Source: Gemmatimonadota bacterium
Lineage (GTDB): Bacteria > Gemmatimonadota > Gemmatimonadetes > Gemmatimonadales > GWC2-71-9
Direction of reading: 5' to 3'
NCBI GenBank assembly: GCA_003223395.1
Contig: QHUZ01000043.1
Coordinates: 1 to 37,356, forward strand
Length of the DNA stretch: 37,356 nucleotides
Shown: positions 27,814 through 37,356 of the stretch, piece after piece
Layout of the letters: the number at the start of each line of letters is the position of its first letter
Numbering within the stretch: the first letter of the stretch is position 1
The notes under the pieces: model-generated
What the model was told of the DNA's origin: nothing
The model's database searches: none
What the model saw: only the letters and a program-made list of their open reading frames with translations
Made by a program: the position numbers and the translations under genes

Positions 27814-28676
27814 TGCTCGGCGCGCACGTCTCGAGTCAGGGCGGGGTGGCGACGGCACCGGCGCGGGGCGGATCGCTGCGCGCCACGGCGATTCAGCTCT
27901 TTACCAAGACGCCGAACCAGTGGCGCGAGCGCGTGCTCGGCGCGGAACAGGTCGAGCGATTCCGGCAGGAGGTCGTGCGTCACAAGCTCGAGGCGGTAGT
28001 GTCGCACGACAGCTATCTCATCAACCTCGCCTCGCCGGACCCGGTGCTACGGGCGCGCAGCATCGAGAGTTTCCGACAGGAGCTCGAGCGCTCGCGAGCG
28101 CTGGGGTTGCGCGCGGTCGTCTCACATCCGGGCAACTACATGGATGAGCGCGCGGCGGGGGTCGAGCGCAATGCCGCGGGTTACGCGGAGTGCCTGCGGT
28201 CGGTTCCGGGCGATGTGGAGGTGTGGATCGAAGGCACAGCGGGATCGGGCACCGCGCTGGGCGCGAGGTTCGAGGAGCTGCGCGATTTGCGCAACGCGCT
28301 GCCTGACGGAATCCGGACGCGCGTCGGCTTCTGCCTCGATACCGCCCATCTGCACGCGGTCGGGTACGATCTGGCGCGGATCGAAGCGGTGTGGGAGGAG
28401 TTCGACCGCGTGATCGGGCTCGATCTACTTAAGTGCTTGCATCTCAATGACTCCCGCGCGGCGCGCGGATCGCGGGTAGATCGGCACGAATGGATCGCCG
28501 AGGGGCAAATCGGGCCGGAGCCGTTCCGGCGCATCATGCGGGACGCGCGATTGGCCGGGGTCGTTAAGATTATCGAAACGCCAAAGCGGGATGACCCGCT
28601 GCGGCACGATCGCCGGATGCTGCGGCGGTTGCGCGCGTACGCGCGCGGCAACACGCGAGCCGCTGTCGGCGTATGA
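27813..28676 (+). CDS. nfo: Endonuclease IV (AP endonuclease)
   Basis: 287 residues beginning MLGAHVSSQGG, the family N-terminus. ATG at 27813 is preferred over GTG at 27810 because it starts exactly there and overlaps the pcm stop. Metal-ligand regions are visible: VVSHDSYLINLASP, VVSHPGNYM, the Glu in WIEGTAGSGT, CLDTAHLHAVGYD, CLHLNDS, VDRHEWIAEG and IIETPK. It cuts the backbone 5' of abasic sites in base-excision repair and needs zinc. Length and motifs are complete. The small exported ORF that follows has its own Shine-Dalgarno 1 base after this stop. Confidence 0.94.
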   Translation: MLGAHVSSQGGVATAPARGGSLRATAIQLFTKTPNQWRERVLGAEQVERFRQEVVRHKLEAVVSHDSYLINLASPDPVLRARSIESFRQELERSRALGLRAVVSHPGNYMDERAAGVERNAAGYAECLRSVPGDVEVWIEGTAGSGTALGARFEELRDLRNALPDGIRTRVGFCLDTAHLHAVGYDLARIEAVWEEFDRVIGLDLLKCLHLNDSRAARGSRVDRHEWIAEGQIGPEPFRRIMRDARLAGVVKIIETPKRDDPLRHDRRMLRRLRAYARGNTRAAVGV

Positions 28677-28684
28677 AGGAGACC

Positions 28685-29008
28685 ATGCTGAAACGCATCT
28701 CGCTCATGCTGCTGCTCGCCATTCAGGCCCTTGGCGGTGGCGCGATCACGTTGGCGCACGCGCGCGACGCGGTCGTGGCGCCGCCCGGGTTTGAGGCGCG
28801 GCATGACGCGCGGTGCGCAATTCTTCACGACGAGCTGCGCTGCGCGCTCTGCCATTACGCGAGCGCCCGCGTCGTCCGGCAACAGGCCTTTACCCTCAAC
28901 ACGCCCCAGGTCGCCGTCCGCGTTGCGCCCGTGCAGCCGGTGGTCGTCTTCGCGGCCGTCGTTCCACTCACCGCCCCCGCGCGAGCGCCGCCTCCGTTCC
29001 TCTCCTGA
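28685..29008 (+). CDS. Exported Cys/His leader protein with C-terminal RAPP motif (copy A)
   Basis: 107 residues. AAGGAG at 28677-28682 selects the ATG at 28685 over one at 28673. A signal peptide (about 1-28) is followed by a metal-binding-type cluster His40, Cys44, His48, Cys53, Cys56, His57 and a hydrophobic stretch. It ends R100-A-P-P-P-F-L-S-stop. RAPP is known as a ribosome-arrest motif in exported arrest peptides, and DUF2946-type leader ORFs with CxxC regulate copper-uptake genes. The final codons pair with the Shine-Dalgarno of the next gene. A paralogue with the same design lies at 36202-36540 on the other strand. A regulatory leader role is inferred; it could also have a periplasmic metal-binding role. 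Confidence 0.75.
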   Translation: MLKRISLMLLLAIQALGGGAITLAHARDAVVAPPGFEARHDARCAILHDELRCALCHYASARVVRQQAFTLNTPQVAVRVAPVQPVVVFAAVVPLTAPARAPPPFLS

Positions 29009-29065
29009 ATCACCAGTACGCGCTCCGCACGTTGCGGAGCCCACGTTTCGCACATACAGGAGAGG
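28999..29065 (+). promoter_or_regulatory. Shine-Dalgarno-sequestering stem between leader A and the porin-like gene
   Basis: CCTCTCCTG (28999-29007, last codons plus stop of leader A) is perfectly complementary to CAGGAGAGG (29057-29065), which holds the Shine-Dalgarno of the gene starting at 29075. The loop contains a second perfect hairpin, GCTCCGCA (29022-29029) with TGCGGAGC (29033-29040). RAPP codons lie at 28982-28993, so a ribosome stalled there would cover the first arm and expose the Shine-Dalgarno. No U-tract follows, so it is not an intrinsic terminator. Confidence 0.65.
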
Positions 29066-29074
29066 TCATCCAAC

Positions 29075-30325
29075 ATGATACGCACGGTGTGCGCGGTGCT
29101 GCTTGCGGCGACGTGTTTCACGGCGCCCGGAGTCAGCCAGCAACCGACGCAACGACAGATGGATTCTTTAGCGGCGCAGGTCCGACAGCTGCGCGCCAGG
29201 CTGGACAGTGTTCTCGCCGCACTCGGACGTCGCCCTGCCCCGCCACCTCCCGCAGCGCCGGTCGGTGACGAGCTTGCCGCATTGCGGGCCGCTGCGAGCC
29301 AGGCCGCGGGCGGTGGCCTCAGCGACACCACGCGGGCCGCCGACACGCTGACGCAAGCCATGGGTCGGGAGCGGAACCAGGCCCAGCTGAATCCGGAGAT
29401 CGGCGCCACGGGAGACGTGCGCGCCTACGCGACGGGGCGCGGGGTGCAGCGCGAGAATTTCGATCCGCGAGAGTTCGAAGTCGGCTTCCAGTCGGCCCTC
29501 GATCCCTACTCGCATACGAAAATCTTCATCAGCCTCGAAGGCGGACACGTTAGTGTGGAGGAAGGGTACGCCTATTGGACCGGCCTGCCGGGACATATTC
29601 GACTCGACCTCGGTAAATACCGTCAGCAATTCGGCGAGCTCAATCGCTGGCATCTGCACGCGGTGCCGGAGACCGAGTACCCGCTCGCGATTACCACCTT
29701 CCTGGGGGAGGATGGGCTCTCGGGAACGGGGATTTCGCTGTATCGCGCCTTTGGCGGATTGGGGACACACGAGTTCACGGCACAGGTCACACGAAGCGCC
29801 AGTGACTCGGAGTTGTTCGGAAACAGCGGCCGGCCGACCTACCTGCTGCATCTCCTCAACTTCTGGCAACTCAACCATTCGACGTACATGCAGATCGGCG
29901 GCACGGCGCTGTACGGCACCGACCCCGATTCGGCGCTGCGCACGAAGGTCGGCGGGCTCGAGTTCCGCCTCACGTGGCGGCCGCCGCTCCGGGCGATGTA
30001 TCACGAATGGACGCTGCGCGGCGAACTGCTCGCGTTGCAGAAGCAGGTCGCCGGTACCGGGCCGACGCGCCTGGGAGGCTATGTCAGCTCCACCTACAAG
30101 CTGAACCAGCGTTTCATCCTCGGCGCCCGCTACGACTACGTCGAGTCGCCGGATTTCGGCGTGATCACGAGACAACTGATCCCCTCGCTCACGCTCTGGC
30201 AGAGCGAGTGGGTGTTCCTCCGCGCTCAATACCAGTGGCAGCAGATCGCGAATGCGCCCGCGAATCACCAGATCGCCTTCCAGGCGGTCTGGGCCATCGG
30301 ACCCCATAAACACGAGACCTACTGA
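29075..30325 (+). CDS. Porin-like outer-membrane beta-barrel protein
   Basis: 416 residues starting at ATG behind AGGAGAGG. A signal peptide (about 1-21) is followed by a short coiled coil (QRQMDSLAAQVRQLRARLDSVLAAL, about 27-51), a Pro/Ala linker, then a region of alternating amphipathic strands rich in Tyr, Trp and Gly typical of outer-membrane barrels, ending in HKHETY. No named family is recognised with certainty. It lies between the RAPP leader and ZnuA/ZnuB-type genes with only one base before the next ATG, so it probably passes metal or a metal complex across the outer membrane. Its Shine-Dalgarno lies in the leader stem. Confidence 0.72.
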   Translation: MIRTVCAVLLAATCFTAPGVSQQPTQRQMDSLAAQVRQLRARLDSVLAALGRRPAPPPPAAPVGDELAALRAAASQAAGGGLSDTTRAADTLTQAMGRERNQAQLNPEIGATGDVRAYATGRGVQRENFDPREFEVGFQSALDPYSHTKIFISLEGGHVSVEEGYAYWTGLPGHIRLDLGKYRQQFGELNRWHLHAVPETEYPLAITTFLGEDGLSGTGISLYRAFGGLGTHEFTAQVTRSASDSELFGNSGRPTYLLHLLNFWQLNHSTYMQIGGTALYGTDPDSALRTKVGGLEFRLTWRPPLRAMYHEWTLRGELLALQKQVAGTGPTRLGGYVSSTYKLNQRFILGARYDYVESPDFGVITRQLIPSLTLWQSEWVFLRAQYQWQQIANAPANHQIAFQAVWAIGPHKHETY

Positions 30326-30326
30326 C

Positions 30327-31373
30327 ATGCTAGCGATCATTGCTCTGTTACTTGGCGCCGTCAGCCCGTCGCCTTCACGACCAAACGCACCGGCGGCGCC
30401 GGTCAAGGTGGTCACCTCGCTCACGACGTACGCCGCGATCGCAGTGGAGATCGTGGGCGATCGGGGGAAAGTCAGCTCGATCGCCGTGGGTGACGAGAAT
30501 CCGCACTACGTGCAGCCCAAGCCGAGCTTCGTGCCGACCCTGGCACAGGCCGACTTGTTCGTGACGACGGGACTGGACCTCGAGCTCTGGGTGCCGGCGC
30601 TGCTCGACAAGGCGAACAATGCGAAGATCACCGAGGGTGGGCCCGGATATGTCGCGGCCTACCAGGGCCTGCCGCTGCTCGACGTTCCCGTCAACCTGTC
30701 GCGCTCCCAGGGCGACATCCACGTCTACGGCAACCCGCACATCTGGACCGACCCGCTGAATGCCGTGCTCATCGCGCGCAACATTCTGCGAGGGTTGAAG
30801 CGCGTCGCGCCCGAGAATGCGGACTATTTCACGGCTCGCGAAAAAGATTTCGAGGACCGGATGTATCGCGCATTGTTCGGCGACGAACTGGTGAAGTTGA
30901 TCGGCGGTGAGACGCTTGCCGATCTCGATCGTCAGGGCAAGCTGTTCAACTTCCTCGGGCAACAGCAGTATCAGGGCGCTCCGCTCATCGGCCGGTTGGG
31001 TGGCTGGCTGAAGCAGGGGATGCCGTTCCGCGGCAAGCTGGTGGCGTGCTACCACAAGGAGTGGGACTACTTCTCGCGCGAGTTCCAGGTCACCTGCTTC
31101 GATTATATCGAGCCGAAACCCGGTATTCCGCCGACGCCGCGCCATGTGCAGGAGATCATCACCGCGATGCGGGACCAGCACATTCAGGTGCTCTTGTCGA
31201 CGAATTACTACGATCGCAGTCAGGTGATGGACGTGGCCCAGCGGACGGGTGCCAAAGCGGTCATCGTGCCGTCCAACACCGGAGGTCAGGCCGGCGTGAA
31301 TACCTATTTCGATCTCATGAATCTCTGGGTCACGGAGCTCACCCAGGCCTTCGGCGCGAAGGAGGTTCCGTGA
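30327..31373 (+). CDS. ZnuA-type metal ABC transporter binding protein
   Basis: 348 residues with ATG one base after the previous stop. A short signal peptide precedes a cluster A-I solute-binding fold. Metal-ligand positions are His60 in ENPHYVQPKP, His138 in GNPHIWTDP, the His in ACYHKEWDYFSREF, and an acidic site near STNYYDRS. The His-rich loop common in zinc-specific ZnuA is absent, so manganese, iron or zinc are all possible. It should capture the ion in the periplasm and deliver it to the permease encoded next, which overlaps it by 4 bases. Confidence 0.88.
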   Translation: MLAIIALLLGAVSPSPSRPNAPAAPVKVVTSLTTYAAIAVEIVGDRGKVSSIAVGDENPHYVQPKPSFVPTLAQADLFVTTGLDLELWVPALLDKANNAKITEGGPGYVAAYQGLPLLDVPVNLSRSQGDIHVYGNPHIWTDPLNAVLIARNILRGLKRVAPENADYFTAREKDFEDRMYRALFGDELVKLIGGETLADLDRQGKLFNFLGQQQYQGAPLIGRLGGWLKQGMPFRGKLVACYHKEWDYFSREFQVTCFDYIEPKPGIPPTPRHVQEIITAMRDQHIQVLLSTNYYDRSQVMDVAQRTGAKAVIVPSNTGGQAGVNTYFDLMNLWVTELTQAFGAKEVP

Positions 31374-32233
31374 GCGGCTTGGAGTTGATGCTGCCGCCAT
31401 TCGTCGCCTGCATGATTCTCGTGGCCATGTTGTCGTACCTCGGCCTGCACGTCATCGCGCGCGAGGTCATCTTCGTAGACCTGTCGCTCGCGCAGATGGC
31501 GGCGCTGGGGAGTTTGTCCGCGCTGCTCTTCCACGTATCCCCCGACTCCGCGAAGACGTACGTGTTCGCCTTGCTGATGACGGCGGTTGGCGCGTTTCTG
31601 TTCGCGCTCACGCGGTCATCGGTGCACGGCGGCAGCGGGGCGGGCCGGGTGCCGCAGGAGGCCTTCATCGGCATCGTGTACGTGGTCGCGTCCGCTGCCG
31701 CGGTCCTGGTGGCGAACAAAGTCCCGGGCGGAGGCGAAGCGGTAGAGAAAACACTGGTGGGCAGTCTGCTGTGGGTCACGTGGCCGACGATCCGAAAGCT
31801 CGCGATCGCGTACGCTGCGTTGGGCGTGTTCCATTACGTCCTGCGGCGCCGCTTCCTCACAATCTCGTTCCATCCGCAGGAGGCCGAGGCGCAGGGTTGG
31901 AAGATTCGCTGGTGGGACTTCGTCTTTTACCTGTCGTTCGGCGTCGTGATTACGCTCGCGGTGCCGATTGCCGGCGTGCTGATGGTGTTCAGCTTCCTTG
32001 TTGTGCCGGCGGTGATCGCGAATCTCTTCACCGCGGACAAGCGCCGGCTGACGATTATCGCGTGGAGCTCAGGGGCCCTGGCATCGGTCCTCGGCCTGTG
32101 GCTGTCCTACACCAAGGATTTGCCCACCGGCCCGCTGGTCGTCTGCATGTACGGCCTACTGCTCGTTGCGGCGGCAGTGCTCCGCAGGCTCGGTATAGGC
32201 AACAAACCGCTACCGAATCCGCAGAACCACTAG
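31370..32233 (+). CDS. ZnuB-type metal ABC transporter permease
   Basis: 287 residues from GTG in a GTGA overlap. About eight hydrophobic helices are visible, with ABC-3 family features: LSYLGLHVIAREVIFVDLSLAQMAALG near the N-terminus and the EAF/SLLWVTWPT region in the middle, then GVLMVFSFLVVPAVIANLF. It forms the membrane channel for the metal held by the ZnuA-type protein. No ATPase gene is adjacent on either side, which is unusual; the motor must be encoded elsewhere. Its last 24 bases overlap the 3' end of the convergent metalloprotease gene. Confidence 0.88.
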   Translation: MSGLELMLPPFVACMILVAMLSYLGLHVIAREVIFVDLSLAQMAALGSLSALLFHVSPDSAKTYVFALLMTAVGAFLFALTRSSVHGGSGAGRVPQEAFIGIVYVVASAAAVLVANKVPGGGEAVEKTLVGSLLWVTWPTIRKLAIAYAALGVFHYVLRRRFLTISFHPQEAEAQGWKIRWWDFVFYLSFGVVITLAVPIAGVLMVFSFLVVPAVIANLFTADKRRLTIIAWSSGALASVLGLWLSYTKDLPTGPLVVCMYGLLLVAAAVLRRLGIGNKPLPNPQNH

Positions 32234-33895
32234 GCGCGGAATGACCGCCGGCGAAACGGCGGTCGTTCCATTCCCGCTGAAATGGAGCGTGAACGCCGCT
32301 CCCCCCGCCGGCTGCACCGCCCGCAGGTACGCGCCTGAGCCCGACTTGAGCGTACCCGTGAGGTTCACAGCGCCTCCCGCCGAGAATGTCGGGACGAGCG
32401 GGTACACCCGCGGGAAGACCTGGGCGTTCTGACTGTGGAGCGAGCTGAACGTGCGGCGGAAGTGCCAGCTCGTGTACTGGAGCTCGCTCGGCGCCGCGAA
32501 TCCGGGCAGATCGGAGACCCAGTTCGCGAGCGCCCAGTTGCTGACCGTCTGGCCGAAGGGCTGGCCGGTTTGCGCCGCGACGTTCGAGGCTCCCGTCAAT
32601 GACGTTTGGACGAGCTTGCCCGGCAACGCCGCGCCGAATTGATCCACGATGTAGCGGGTGAAGAGCCAGCTCCCGCCGACCATCGCCAACGACCCGTTAT
32701 CGACGGGGATCAACAACGGTGTATCCGCAGTTGCCAGCAGATATTGATAGGCATCGTACGCGTCCCCGAACGCGTAATTGCTGAACATCGCCGTGTCTGC
32801 CTCGGCGAGGTAACTCCGACCCGCGAGCTCCTCGGCGTATTTGGAGAGACCCTCGTCCAGCCATCCCTCTTCTGGGTTATTGGCACCCCTCAGCACGTGC
32901 TCGACGAAATTGATCATGTGCTGGAATTCGTGAGTGAAGGTGACCGGCGTGATGAAGTTGACCTCTGAATTCTTGTGCGCACAACTCAGCGTGCCTGCCG
33001 AATCGGCCACGATCGAGTAGAAGATCTCGCCGTTGTTGTAGGTCGTGGAGAATCCGGGAGCGAGGTCGCCGGGGAAGAAAAAGCCCGCGATGTAGCCGGC
33101 TCCAGGAGTGTTGCACTGCGCCGCCGTGACAAGCTTGTTCACCTGGTTGGTCATCAGGACGATGACGACGGAGTTGGAATCGATGTCCGACACGTGACCG
33201 AACGTGGTCGTGTCGAGCGGGTAGAGCCGCGAATCGAACACGTTCTTGAGCGAATCAAGATCGGTGGCGCTGAGCCCAGGAGAAGGAGCCAGCGAATCTA
33301 TGTAGATGGCGATGTGCACACCTACCGCCCGCGCAACGGCACGAACATTGACCGTCGTCAAACAGTTCGAGTCTGCACAGACTTTGAACGCTCGTTTGCT
33401 GCCAACCACCGGTGGGCCGGCGGCCGGTGACGGCTGTGGCACTCCGGCGCTGACCGCGGGCGCCGATCGATCGGCTGGCGGATAGCGACGATTGGTGGCG
33501 AGGTCCCGCAGGAAGTGATCGAAGGCCGCGGCTGTCGCACCCCGGCTGCGCGGACCGGACGGCGTGAAAGCGCGGGACATCGCGATCGACGGCACGGGTT
33601 CCGCCGACTGCAGCATGAAGGGCGCCGATGCCCCCGGCGTGCCGACGGTCGACCACGGCAGTACCAAGTACTCGGCGGTGTCGGGTGCGGTATTCGCCGC
33701 GAACGTCACGCAACCGGCATCGCTTGCGGGGTCGATGGACGTGTAGGCACCAACGGCAAGGGCCAGCGGCGTGCCGTGCGCCCCGCAGGACGGCAGGCCA
33801 GGCCCCGCCGAATCGCTACTGCATGCGACCGTCAGGACCAGGCCTCCCACACTTGCAAGAATTCCCAGCAATGAAACCCGAGTGCTCACAGCCAC
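32210..33895 (-). CDS. M30-like zinc metalloprotease lipoprotein
   Basis: 561 residues from GTG, starting one base after the TonB-receptor stop. A lipoprotein signal ends at VLTVACSS. The catalytic domain (about 175-440) carries the zinc motif TFTHEFQHMINF (HExxH) and, about 25 residues on, a downstream Glu in GWLDEGLSKYAEELAG. The arrangement resembles M30 hyicolysin-type proteases. The C-terminal 100 residues form a beta-rich domain. It would be anchored in the outer or inner membrane facing the periplasm or outside. Co-transcription with the TonB receptor suggests it may free metal or peptide for uptake, which is inference. Confidence 0.83.
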   Translation of the reverse strand: MAVSTRVSLLGILASVGGLVLTVACSSDSAGPGLPSCGAHGTPLALAVGAYTSIDPASDAGCVTFAANTAPDTAEYLVLPWSTVGTPGASAPFMLQSAEPVPSIAMSRAFTPSGPRSRGATAAAFDHFLRDLATNRRYPPADRSAPAVSAGVPQPSPAAGPPVVGSKRAFKVCADSNCLTTVNVRAVARAVGVHIAIYIDSLAPSPGLSATDLDSLKNVFDSRLYPLDTTTFGHVSDIDSNSVVIVLMTNQVNKLVTAAQCNTPGAGYIAGFFFPGDLAPGFSTTYNNGEIFYSIVADSAGTLSCAHKNSEVNFITPVTFTHEFQHMINFVEHVLRGANNPEEGWLDEGLSKYAEELAGRSYLAEADTAMFSNYAFGDAYDAYQYLLATADTPLLIPVDNGSLAMVGGSWLFTRYIVDQFGAALPGKLVQTSLTGASNVAAQTGQPFGQTVSNWALANWVSDLPGFAAPSELQYTSWHFRRTFSSLHSQNAQVFPRVYPLVPTFSAGGAVNLTGTLKSGSGAYLRAVQPAGGAAFTLHFSGNGTTAVSPAVIPRLVVLRIR

Positions 33896-33896
33896 T

Positions 33897-36101
33897 TTAG
33901 AACTCCGTCGTTATCCGCGCGATGAGTGAACGGCCCATGCCTGGATCCACTGCGTTGGTCTTGATACGGCTCAAGTAGTCCGCATAACGCCTGTCGAACG
34001 CGTTGCGCAACGACAGATCTACCATGATCGTGCGAGATCCGGCGACGAACCCCGCACCAGCACCGACGTTCATGAGCGCGTAGGGACGAGATTGATACCC
34101 CGCTCCTCCAAAAGCGTCCGCAAAAAACTGCCGCTCCGCGGGGTCGAGGCGTGTCTGGCGAGCATTGGTCTCACCGCCGATCGAGAAGTAGGCCCGCTGG
34201 CCGTGCTCAAGCCGCGCCGTCCACGTTGCGCGGAACGGCGGCATGTTGGGGAGCGGCTGATCGGTTGACGTGTTCTGGCCGCGCACATAATCCGCGGTGC
34301 CCTGCAGATGCAGATACGCTGTCGGGTGCCACTGGAACGCGCTCTCGAAGCCCGTGAGGCGAGCGTTTCCTTGGGTGACGTCGTAGATCTGAAAGCCCGA
34401 CGCGCTGTCGACGGTCCCAGTGGGGAACGTATAGATGTAGTCCTGAATCAGGTTGACGAACGCCCCCACCTCGAAGGCCAGCCGCGCCGTCTGTGCCCGC
34501 ACGGCAACATCGGTGTTGATGGACTTCTCCGTCTTGAGATTCGGGTTGCCCCGTTCGAAAGCGACAGTGCCCTCGTGCACGCCGTTCGAGTACAAGTCGA
34601 ACGAGGACGGAGCGCGGAACCCCCGACCCACGTTGATGACCAGCGCCGCCGGCTCACTGAGGTGGAACAACAGTCCCGCGTTGGCGATCGCCGAGCTCCA
34701 GGTGTGCGTCCGCGCGCTGTTTCCCAGGGCGGTATCGGCGTCCACATCGAGGCGGCGGTAATCGTAGCGCGCGCCGAACGATAGGTTCACGCGCCGTCCT
34801 TCGGACTGTTCGAATGCGTAGATACCCACCGTATTGAGCCGCGAGGGCGGGATCAACGTCTCTTCACCGAACTTGTTGAACGTCGTCCGCAACCCGGACA
34901 GACCGAGCAGGCCGGAGAACTGCCCGAGGGGCGCGTGGTGGTAGTGGACGTCCGCCAGATAGGTCTGCGAGAGCAGTCCCAGCCCCACGGTGCTCGTCGT
35001 GTCGTCTTCGAACTCCCGGCGCCGGCTGCGTTCGTAGCCGGTCGAGACCTCGAGACGAGCGGCGCCGAGCGGCAACGCGAGATCGGCCCGGGCGTGACTC
35101 GTGGACATCCGTTGCGTCGGGGTCGCGAGGGGATCTTCGTCCGTCATCGATATCCGCTCGTCGCGCTGCGAGAACGTTCCCGATAGACTCCCCCACGTTC
35201 CGCGCGCGCCGATGGTCCCGCTTCCACCGAGGGCTCGATCGCCGCTATTCCAGAGCACGTAGTCGGGCGTGTGTACATCGCCGCTGCTCCGTCCGCTGAG
35301 ACTGCCGCGGAATCCGACGCTCCCGCTCCCCCCCTCCAGATCGAGCGCGCCATCCTTGAGACCGTTGCCGCTGCCGTAAGCCGCCGACATCGTGCCGCGC
35401 ACGAACCCGGGCACCCCCACCGCGTCCGGAAGGTCCTTCTCGATGACGTTCACCACACCACCCAATGCGTCTGAGCCATACAGTACGCTCGCCGGACCGC
35501 GAATCACCTCGATCCGCTCGGCGTTCGCCGTCTCGATGTTAGGACTGTGCTCATCGCCCCACTGCTGGGTCTCGAGCCGCTGGCCGTCGTCCAGCACGAG
35601 CACCCGATTCGAGGTGAGACCGCGAATGACCGGCTTCCCGATCCCCACCCCGGTGCTCCAGCTGCGCACGCCGGCGACGCCCGAGAGCGTCTCACCGAGA
35701 CTCTGCGATTGCGACTGGCGGAGCTCATCGCCCGCCACGACGCTGGTAGGCTGGGGCGAGTTCAATGGGCTCGTAGCATTGGCACTGGCGGTAACCTGAA
35801 CGCCCGTCAATTCGACCACCGACTCCCGCATCGTCACGTCAGCGGTGACGTCGCCGCCCGTCGCGACGACGCTGCGGACCGCCGGGGCGTAGCCAATACG
35901 TTGGAAGGTGACGGTGAAGGTGCCCGCCGGGAGGCCGGCAATCGAATAGCGTCCTGAGGTATCGGTCGTCGTCGACCGATGCAGATCGGGAAGTGAGACC
36001 AGAACATCCGCAACCGGCGCACCGGCCGGGGTGGTGACGCGACCGGACAATATCCCGGTGCTGCCGGACAGTAGCGTGAGCAGCAATGTGAGGAAATGCA
36101 T
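33897..36101 (-). CDS. TonB-dependent outer-membrane receptor
   Basis: 734 residues; ATG at 36101 is chosen because AGGAGA lies 5 bases upstream and a signal peptide (MHFLTLLLTLLSG) starts there. An N-terminal carboxypeptidase-regulatory-like domain (about 18-95) precedes the plug: QSLGETLSGVAGVRSW, GKPVIRGLTSNRVLVLDDG and ERIEVIRGPASVLYGSDALGGVVNVI. A 22-strand-type barrel ends in Phe (RITTEF). The plug resembles ZnuD-like metal receptors in its PVIRG and DEHSPNIE segments, but the ligand is not proved. The upstream RAPP leader probably regulates it; the metalloprotease gene follows with a one-base gap. Confidence 0.92.
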   Translation of the reverse strand: MHFLTLLLTLLSGSTGILSGRVTTPAGAPVADVLVSLPDLHRSTTTDTSGRYSIAGLPAGTFTVTFQRIGYAPAVRSVVATGGDVTADVTMRESVVELTGVQVTASANATSPLNSPQPTSVVAGDELRQSQSQSLGETLSGVAGVRSWSTGVGIGKPVIRGLTSNRVLVLDDGQRLETQQWGDEHSPNIETANAERIEVIRGPASVLYGSDALGGVVNVIEKDLPDAVGVPGFVRGTMSAAYGSGNGLKDGALDLEGGSGSVGFRGSLSGRSSGDVHTPDYVLWNSGDRALGGSGTIGARGTWGSLSGTFSQRDERISMTDEDPLATPTQRMSTSHARADLALPLGAARLEVSTGYERSRRREFEDDTTSTVGLGLLSQTYLADVHYHHAPLGQFSGLLGLSGLRTTFNKFGEETLIPPSRLNTVGIYAFEQSEGRRVNLSFGARYDYRRLDVDADTALGNSARTHTWSSAIANAGLLFHLSEPAALVINVGRGFRAPSSFDLYSNGVHEGTVAFERGNPNLKTEKSINTDVAVRAQTARLAFEVGAFVNLIQDYIYTFPTGTVDSASGFQIYDVTQGNARLTGFESAFQWHPTAYLHLQGTADYVRGQNTSTDQPLPNMPPFRATWTARLEHGQRAYFSIGGETNARQTRLDPAERQFFADAFGGAGYQSRPYALMNVGAGAGFVAGSRTIMVDLSLRNAFDRRYADYLSRIKTNAVDPGMGRSLIARITTEF

Positions 36102-36102
36102 G

Positions 36103-36213
36103 ACGCTCTCCTGTTCAGGCGCGCGCACACCCCTCCAACGGAGTCGTGAACGCGAGCGAGTTGTTTGAATTGCGGTCGCCGCGGAAGCGCGGCGCCGTTA
36201 CTCAGGAGAGCGT
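36103..36213 (-). promoter_or_regulatory. Shine-Dalgarno-sequestering stem between leader B and the TonB receptor
   Basis: On the minus-strand transcript ACGCTCTCCTG (36213-36203, last codons plus stop of leader B) is perfectly complementary over 11 bp to CAGGAGAGCGT (36113-36103), which contains the receptor's Shine-Dalgarno. The 89-base loop holds a 7-bp GC hairpin (36177-36183 with 36188-36194). RAPP codons at 36225-36214 lie directly before the first arm, so an arrested ribosome would mask it. Confidence 0.68.
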
Positions 36214-36540
36214 GGGAGGAGCGCGCGAACCAGGAAGAGTGAGATCAGCGGCAGTCGACGAGTGCTGAACGACAATCGGCGCCCATCTGATGCCCCGCCC
36301 TTCGGGAATGCGAATGACAGTCGTTGCTGTACGGGCGAGTGGTGCCGAGAGAAGTCGGTGGAATGCGCAGTCGGCCGGATGGATGCGGGGGCACCCGGCC
36401 GTGGAGTGCGACTCGATGTGCGCCGGACCGGACTGCTCGCCGATGCTGGCATCGGCCCACGCCGCGGCCGCCGGCACGCTGAATTGCAACAGCGCGAGGA
36501 GGAGAAGCGGCGTCCGGACCCACAGCGAGCGTTTCCGCAT
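36202..36540 (-). CDS. Exported Cys/His leader protein with C-terminal RAPP motif (copy B)
   Basis: 112 residues, starting at the ATG that lies 7 bases after TAATAT on the minus strand. A signal peptide (about 1-28, MRKRSLWVRTPLLLLALLQF) is followed by the cluster His41, His45, Cys50, His54, Cys58, His61. It ends R106-A-P-P-T-L-S-stop. Alignment with copy A by eye gives H-x(3/4)-C-x3-H-x(3/4)-C-x2-[C/H] and the same RAPP...LS tail. It is 100 bases upstream of the TonB receptor on the same strand and its last codons pair with that gene's Shine-Dalgarno. A metal-responsive arrest-peptide role is inferred; the metal (copper, zinc or other) is unknown. Confidence 0.75.
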   Translation of the reverse strand: MRKRSLWVRTPLLLLALLQFSVPAAAAWADASIGEQSGPAHIESHSTAGCPRIHPADCAFHRLLSAPLARTATTVIRIPEGRGIRWAPIVVQHSSTAADLTLPGSRAPPTLS

Positions 36541-36547
36541 CGGGGGC

Positions 36548-36553
36548 ATATTA
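36548..36553 (-). promoter_or_regulatory. -10 hexamer for leader B / TonB receptor operon
   Basis: TAATAT on the minus strand ends 7 bases before the leader ATG (36540), predicting a leaderless transcript. No good -35 is seen. Confidence 0.5.
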
Positions 36554-36570
36554 CAACGCACGACTCGGTC

Positions 36571-36600
36571 TTGACAGCCTCCGTCACACCCCCTTAGCAT
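36571..36600 (+). promoter_or_regulatory. Sigma-70-like promoter for the malic enzyme gene
   Basis: A perfect TTGACA (36571-36576), an 18-base spacer and TAGCAT (36595-36600) precede the gene, predicting a start near 36607 and a leader of about 20 bases. A second -10-like TATAAA lies at 36612-36617. It is back to back with the leader B promoter. Confidence 0.55.
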
Positions 36601-36615
36601 AACCCCTTCTCTATA

Positions 36616-36631
36616 AAGGACTTCTGTCCTT
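36616..36631 (+). promoter_or_regulatory. Hairpin enclosing the malic enzyme Shine-Dalgarno and start codon
   Basis: AAGGAC (36616-36621) and GTCCTT (36626-36631) form a perfect 6-bp stem with a TTCT loop. The stem contains the Shine-Dalgarno AAGGA and the first two bases of the TTG start, so it may limit translation. Confidence 0.45.
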
Positions 36632-37356
36632 GGTCCCGCCCAGCCGCCGCCAGGAGGCCCTCGACTATCACTCGCAGGGCCGCCCTGGGAAGATCCAGGT
36701 CACACCTACAAAGCCGTTCAAGGATCAGCGGGATCTATCCCTCGCGTACACGCCGGGCGTCGCCGAGCCGTGCCTGGACATCGCGAAGAACCCGGACGAC
36801 GCCTACCGCTACACGGCCAAAGGCAATCTCGTCGCCGTGGTCTCGAATGGGACGGCGGTGCTTGGCCTGGGAAACATCGGCGCGCTCGCGGGCAAGCCCG
36901 TGATGGAGGGCAAGGGCATCCTCTTCAAGGCCTTCGCCGACATCGACGTGTTCGACCTCGAGGTGGGCTCCGAGAATCCGGAAGACGTCATCCGCTTCTG
37001 CCAGCTGCTCGAGCCGACGGTCGGCGGGATCAATCTCGAGGACATTCGCTCGCCGGACTGCTTCCATATCGAGCAACGCCTGCGCGAAACGCTCGGCATC
37101 CCCGTGTTCCACGACGACCAGCACGGCACGGCGATTATTTCGGGCGCGGCGCTGCTCAACGCGCTCCTCCTCGTCAAGAAAGACCTCGCCAAGGTCAAGA
37201 TCGTATTCGCAGGCGCCGGCGCGGCCGCCATCGCGACCGCCGAGCACTACGTGCGCCTCGGCGTGCGTCGCGAGAACATCGTCATGTGCGACCACAAGGG
37301 CGTGATCTACAACGGCCGCGACGGGTTGGATGAGTTCAAGCAGCGCTTCGCGATCG
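36630..37356 (+). CDS. maeB: NADP-type malic enzyme (MaeB-like), 3'-truncated by window edge
   Basis: 242 codons are visible before the window ends. TTG at 36630 is the first usual start after an in-frame TAA at 36600 and has AAGGA 9 bases upstream. The sequence matches bacterial Mae[27 protein letters not shown] (catalytic Tyr region), [54 protein letters not shown] (metal Asp residues) and the NADP-binding start [13 protein letters not shown]. The enzyme oxidatively decarboxylates malate to pyruvate, making NADPH. Whether the C-terminal phosphotransacetylase-like domain of large MaeB proteins is present cannot be seen. Confidence 0.93.

Follow-up and report, generated by a model that had tools for sequence, protein, structure and literature searches.

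The gene cluster and its two leaders

The analysed window, 37,356 nucleotides of a Gemmatimonadota contig, holds two leader reading frames that carry the codons for Arg-Ala-Pro-Pro (RAPP) close to their ends: leader B precedes the gene of a TonB-dependent receptor on the minus strand, and leader A, whose tail after RAPP is one residue longer, precedes an operon on the plus strand (Table 1). Compared with proteins of known structure in the PDB, the receptor was nearest to the zinc receptor ZnuD (3.9e-28), the copper channel OprC coming no closer than 3e-13; ZnuD also ranked first in NCBIfam, below its cut-off. For the leader A operon the best NCBIfam match was AztC (zinc), likewise below cut-off. 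The overall similarity of the binding protein did not separate zinc from manganese/iron proteins; its third metal ligand is presumably a histidine (in CYHKEWDYF), as in ZnuA and AztC, where manganese/iron proteins have glutamate. Judged by these neighbouring genes, zinc is the better guess for the metal, copper being possible, and the series leader A, porin, ZnuA, ABC-3 permease, leader B and ZnuD-like receptor looks like a zinc-uptake cluster. A gene for an ABC ATPase is absent beside the ZnuA-type and ABC-3 genes (29075-32233, plus strand) as well as from the relatives' clusters looked at.

Table 1. Coordinates of the leaders, their RNA elements and the neighbouring genes in the window.
Feature	Position	Strand	Remarks
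Leader A, second RAPP leader	28682-29008	+	CALCH motif; RAPP at 28982-28993
Leader A stem	28999-29065	+	CCTCTCCTG (28999-29007) with CAGGAGAGG (29057-29065); from fold; before ATG 29075
Leader A operon	29075-32233	+	porin-like protein, binding protein, permease
Porin-like outer-membrane protein	29075-30325	+	
ZnuA-type binding protein	30327-31373	+	Pfam ZnuA 2.9e-42
ABC-3 permease	31370-32233	+	Pfam ABC-3 1.1e-29
Secreted protein	32210-33895	-	weakly similar to HExxH metalloproteases of the MXAN_6640 type; immediately 3' of receptor gene
TonB-dependent receptor, 734 aa	33897-36101	-	Pfam plug and barrel; nearest ZnuD by sequence; ATG 36101-36099
Arm 2	36103-36113	-	CAGGAGAGCGT; contains receptor Shine-Dalgarno AGGAG
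G+C-rich hairpin in loop	36173-36197	-	directly 3' of leader B stop; minimum-energy fold; predicted there in most relatives
Leader B coding sequence with TGA stop	36202-36549	-	orthologues, alignment A1, upstream DNA comparison
Arm 1 (anti-Shine-Dalgarno)	36203-36213	-	ACGCTCTCCTG; codons ACG CTC TCC and TG of the TGA stop (36204-36202)
RAPP, putative arrest motif of leader B	36214-36225	-	CGC GCT CCT CCC (36225-36214); invariant in leader B
Putative metal site of leader B	36358-36420	-	H-x3-H...C-x3-H-x3-C-x2-H; other clades C-x3-H-x3-C-x2-C
Signal-peptide-like N-terminus of leader B	36448-36540	-	MRKRSLWVRTPLLLLALLQFSVPAAAAWADA; from sequence, by eye; LLQ..LP.AAAWADA conserved in A1

The arrangement of the cluster varies among the relatives. 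The genera g3, g6 and g7 have both leaders on one strand, separated by about 3.6 kb that hold the porin, ZnuA and ABC-3 genes. Where the cluster is undivided in this way, the start of leader B runs into the stop codon of the permease gene ahead of it, mostly as GTGA or ATGA. The window's genus and the neighbouring g2 differ in that leader B with its receptor is convergent to the operon of leader A. The MXAN_6640-like secreted protein adjoins the receptor in several relatives, too.

Among 102 genomes of the family, 28 had a leader match and 24 have true orthologues of leader B (weak hits L025, L026, L028 and L029, which have no RAPP end, were left out); the named relatives with the leader are Gemmatimonadetes metagenome-assembled genomes. 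Alignment A1 of these proteins has 22 invariant columns, among them H44, C53, H57, C61 and R109-A-P-P (numbered from ATG 36549), and H48 is nearly invariant. The CxxC/H motif and RAPP are 44 residues apart in the leader B set (43 in a single case), and each leader B ends three residues past RAPP. According to this comparison leader B is a conserved, real gene. Its small product probably acts as a metal binder that stalls the very ribosome making it.

Translation of leader B likely begins at ATG 36540 or 36549. A promoter-like site (TTGACA-18-TAGCAT, 36571-36600, plus strand) is directed towards the divergent malic-enzyme gene and overlaps the upstream part of the long leader frame; ATG 36600 sits in this stretch, and the portion common to other genera begins near 36540, so that a start at 36600 is less likely. 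The initial annotation had predicted that leader B is translated from a leaderless mRNA. A TGTAAT-like box just 5' of ATG 36540 is common to the five same-genus species examined and makes a leaderless transcript possible in the window's genus, but the plus-strand site was the only promoter-like one in the scan, which gave no minus-strand promoter; the proposal is inapplicable in genera in which leader B overlaps the permease gene.

The stem at the receptor start

The C-terminus of leader B reads ...P-G-S-R-A-P-P-T-L-S-stop, and a base-by-base check bore out the geometry first described for it: a perfect stem of 11 base pairs, all of them Watson-Crick, spans a loop of 89 bases (36202-36114), and the RAPP codons abut its first arm exactly, ending at 36214 where arm 1 begins at 36213. 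This stem is real and not due to chance. The 11-mer is present in the window at the two arm sites only (0.04 expected), and when arm 1 was shuffled against the real start region, a run of at least 11 pairs arose in 2 of 20,000 trials. A mechanical, blind scan of about 155 kb for stop codons located 60-130 nt ahead of GGAG...ATG covered 165 combinations, and all 12 matches of at least 8 bp were RAPP leaders, gene pairs other than those with RAPP giving none of that length. Rfam returned no RNA family match at E up to 1 for 28500-37356. C>G-rich stretches occur on the transcribed (minus) strand at about 36412-36309 and 36282-36153, that is in late leader B and just past it.

Comparison of 25 leader B loci indicates that the stem is conserved as RNA. 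The Leu-Ser codons of the arm are CTC TCC in 24 of the leaders and CTT TCC in one, even though leucine and serine have six codons each and the spelling of RAPP varies widely. Complementarity of 6 to 11 bases between the arm and the start region of the next gene is present in all 25 loci, and in minimum-energy folds of the intact sequences the arm is paired with the Shine-Dalgarno sequence (SD); when the ten bases after RAPP are blocked, this helix is gone from the folds. Blocking lowers the median predicted SD opening cost from 9.0 to 4.4 kcal/mol, with a clear drop in 21 of the 25 loci; in the exceptions, L015, L016, L017 and L022, it barely changes or even rises. In the window itself the predicted cost falls from 13.3 to 6.2 kcal/mol, so that 6.2 kcal/mol remain, and for leader A from 8.1 to 0.9 kcal/mol.

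Across the 25 aligned arm pairs, 80% of the cells pair, compared with 74% after shuffling, and the covariation score is 0.188 versus 0.116 for shuffled pairs. None of 500 shuffles reached 0.188, and a shift of the register by one base lowers the score to 0.03. Since the six core pairs had served to choose the register, the flanking pairs provide the more independent evidence here. The pair adjoining the SD core is G-C in 13 loci, U-A in 4 and C-G in 3, and the flanking pair of the leader A stem (C-G, versus G-C in leader B) covaries as well.

Pairing after RAPP across Gemmatimonadota

Profile searches and fetched regions yielded a wider set of 126 leaders from the phylum (CxxC/H, 43-46 residues, R[AG]PP and a nearby stop; start codons assigned by a simple script), which fall into 56 clusters at 45% identity. 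In an initial permutation test on 125 loci with 200 nt of downstream sequence, the median rank was 0.23 and 23 of 125 loci ranked at 0.05 or lower; since relatives share arms, this unclustered test is diluted, and the clustered one was used instead. In the clustered test, the mean pairing energy of the post-RAPP bases was -14.5 kcal/mol with the cluster's own downstream start region and -11.65 kcal/mol with those of other clusters (z -7.7; 0 of 20,000 permutations). When an 18-nt segment was slid along the sequence, z was -7.9 at offset 0, -3.6 at -12 and -4.0 at +6, and near zero elsewhere except for a weaker -2.2 at +36. An arm directly after RAPP is in these sequences a rule across the phylum in the statistical sense, many of the 56 single clusters being without convincing pairing.

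Other Gemmatimonadota families achieve the pairing by sequences unrelated to the window stem: AGTGTGATC with GATCACACT in L049, CGGTTGAGT with ACTCAACCG in L052 and GAGAGCTG with CAGCTCTC in L050. In these three loci and in L133 the start region paired with the arm lacks an obvious SD; the target therefore seems to be the start region itself and not the SD only. Two relatives of leader A, L037 and L041, have RGPP for RAPP (RGPPTSRS), and here, too, the arm that comes next can pair with the start region of the following gene. In a plasmid collection, a Gemmatimonadota leader used as query had no relatives and a made-up generic RAPP leader no match.

A candidate nascent-peptide switch

Leader B gave no match to DUF2946 (Pfam PF11162), the family of the CruR-type leaders, nor any other Pfam or NCBIfam match above cut-off; a DUF1589 match (E 0.02-0.03) lies below cut-off and is absent from the relatives. 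Its link to the CruR type is provided by weak DUF2946 matches in 13 of 23 close relatives (best E 0.013) and by the leader profile, which recovers loci that pass the Pfam cut-off for DUF2946 (e.g. G269:C27, G301:C12 and G255:C414). By sequence, leader B would be a remote or divergent member of the type that lacks one of its defining features, the CxxC motif. CruR of Bordetella pertussis (bp2923-bfrG; PMC9426467) is likewise a small exported uORF protein ahead of a TonB-dependent receptor gene, at a long gap; like CruR, leader B stands at the head of metal-handling genes of its own strand (here the ZnuD-like receptor) and has an apparent export signal, a hydrophobic N-terminus ending in the conserved AAAWADA (by eye). 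The motif-to-RAPP distance is 45 residues in CruR and 44 in leader B, and three residues follow RAPP in both. They differ in that CruR has CxxC, responds to copper and acts by Rho termination, no SD-masking arm having been described for it, whereas leader B has CxxH (in its own genus), a zinc-type cluster and a conserved pairing of the arm with the SD.

Taken together, a metal-responsive translational switch is the probable function of this region. Toeprints show that a ribosome covers about ten bases past its A-site codon. A ribosome arrested on RAPP would thus cover arm 1; the SD-hiding helix would be blocked and the receptor would be ON. Binding of a metal, most likely zinc, to the Cys/His motif of the nascent chain would release the arrest, and once the leader is finished and the ribosome gone, arm 1 would close on the SD and turn the receptor OFF. 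RAPP-dependent arrest of CruR has been documented by toeprinting (PMC12992588), the arrest geometry of RAPP leaders has been described (PMC12992588, PMC10951233), and CruR is released by copper via its CxxC motif (PMC9426467); release by the metal, as in CruR, suits an importer and would leave the receptor OFF when metal is present. For leader B, we infer all three of arrest, zinc as the ligand and this polarity, and the unmasking of the SD by the arrested ribosome follows from geometry in the same conditional sense. The protection of the arm by a ribosome on RAPP, as put forward in the initial annotation, is strongly backed on its comparative side: RAPP, the position of the arm and its complementarity to the start show conservation and covariation, and the signal lies in the bases that immediately follow RAPP and is limited to them. 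The metal-binding motif, the kinship with CruR and CutF and the metal-uptake cluster go beyond that annotation.

Attenuation of the CruR type, in which arrest on RAPP would keep Rho off the RNA and release would lead to termination before the receptor, with the stem as a secondary or extra element, is unlikely as the main mechanism. It is the mechanism demonstrated for CruR (PMC9426467), and the C>G-rich stretches mentioned above resemble in composition the Rho-dependent terminator of CruR; the gap, however, is 100 nt here versus 162 bp in CruR, and a covarying post-RAPP arm paired with the start region would be left unexplained. Given these stretches, Rho termination may act in addition to the proposed translational switch.

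Somewhat less probable still is a polarity as in CutF of Rhodobacter capsulatus (cutFOG; PMC9973294), by which the metal would strengthen the arrest and turn the receptor ON. CutF, too, is an exported nascent sensor of the DUF2946 type; it controls an mRNA stem over the SD of the next gene, and its arrest is enhanced by copper (PMC9973294). It has, however, CxxxC and a proline-rich tail other than RAPP where leader B has CxxH and RAPP, and it controls a multicopper oxidase, in contrast to the TonB receptor downstream of leader B. For an importer next to an uptake ABC system repression by the metal is expected, and RAPP with its three-residue tail matches CruR, which the metal releases.

That leader B is a secretion monitor resembling SecM or ApdA, released by the pulling force of Sec and not by a metal, is improbable to a slightly greater degree. 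The signal-peptide-like N-terminus speaks for it, and RAPP arrest in Sec-related leaders is force-sensitive. Leader B shares the RAPP chemistry with ApdA and ApdP, whose arrest others have demonstrated, and, by its predicted fold, the stem hiding the SD of the next gene with SecM and CutF. Against a monitor of this kind stand the Cys/His residues, which are invariant and evenly spaced among the leaders, and the genes downstream, which serve metal uptake and are not Sec components. SecM, ApdA and ApdP survey export or insertion and control Sec/YidC genes, and they have no metal motif. In SecM-secA and the Sec/YidC arrest peptides (PMC10951233, PMC10987492), arrest close to the end of an exported leader opens an SD stem. 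Trivial complementarity, i.e. that a C/T-rich tail pairs with any purine-rich SD, deserves hardly any credence: the six-base core would indeed pair with most GGAG-type start regions, but the permutation, position and control scans contradict such an origin, and L049 and L052 pair via unrelated sequences.

A wider proposition combines these observations: two CruR-like RAPP leaders would gate the outer-membrane and the periplasmic parts of one zinc-uptake cluster as nascent-peptide zinc sensors, with a co-evolving, ribosome-masked anti-start arm in the last codons and stop throughout Gemmatimonadota. We put it forward tentatively and with some doubt. RAPP arrest, metal sensing by CruR, SD unmasking by an arrested ribosome and RAPP leaders before TonB receptors are already known, RAPP uORFs ahead of TonB-related genes being widespread in Gram-negative bacteria (PMC12992588). 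As far as the CruR, CutF and RAPP papers show, the post-RAPP arm as a rule for the phylum, two RAPP leaders in one uptake cluster of the zinc type and the CxxH variant are new. Zinc is unmentioned in the main texts on CruR, CutF and the RAPP survey, that of the RAPP/RGPP survey also leaving Gemmatimonadota, Shine-Dalgarno sequences and stem-loops unmentioned (PMC12992588), and a literature search for bacterial arrest peptides that respond to zinc brought up no paper.

How the arrest regulates downstream genes was left open by the 2025 RAPP survey (PMC12992588); the covariation suggests an answer for one phylum, in that the arrest site would be set such that the footprint of the stalled ribosome covers an arm able to pair with the start. 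According to Roy et al. (PMC9426467), no riboswitch for copper or zinc has been described; if the proposal is true, zinc sensing by a nascent peptide in an uptake operon would close this gap. The capacity of the bases immediately 3' of the RAPP codons to pair with the following start region furthermore offers a computable signature for arrest-regulated genes. CAFH, the CxxH form, occurs in 6 of the 126 leaders including that of the window, the remaining 120 having CxxC, and the change from CxxC to CxxH may mark a change of ligand. The CxxH form (36358-36393, minus strand) is found in the window's genus and its sister g2, the two lineages with the convergent arrangement.
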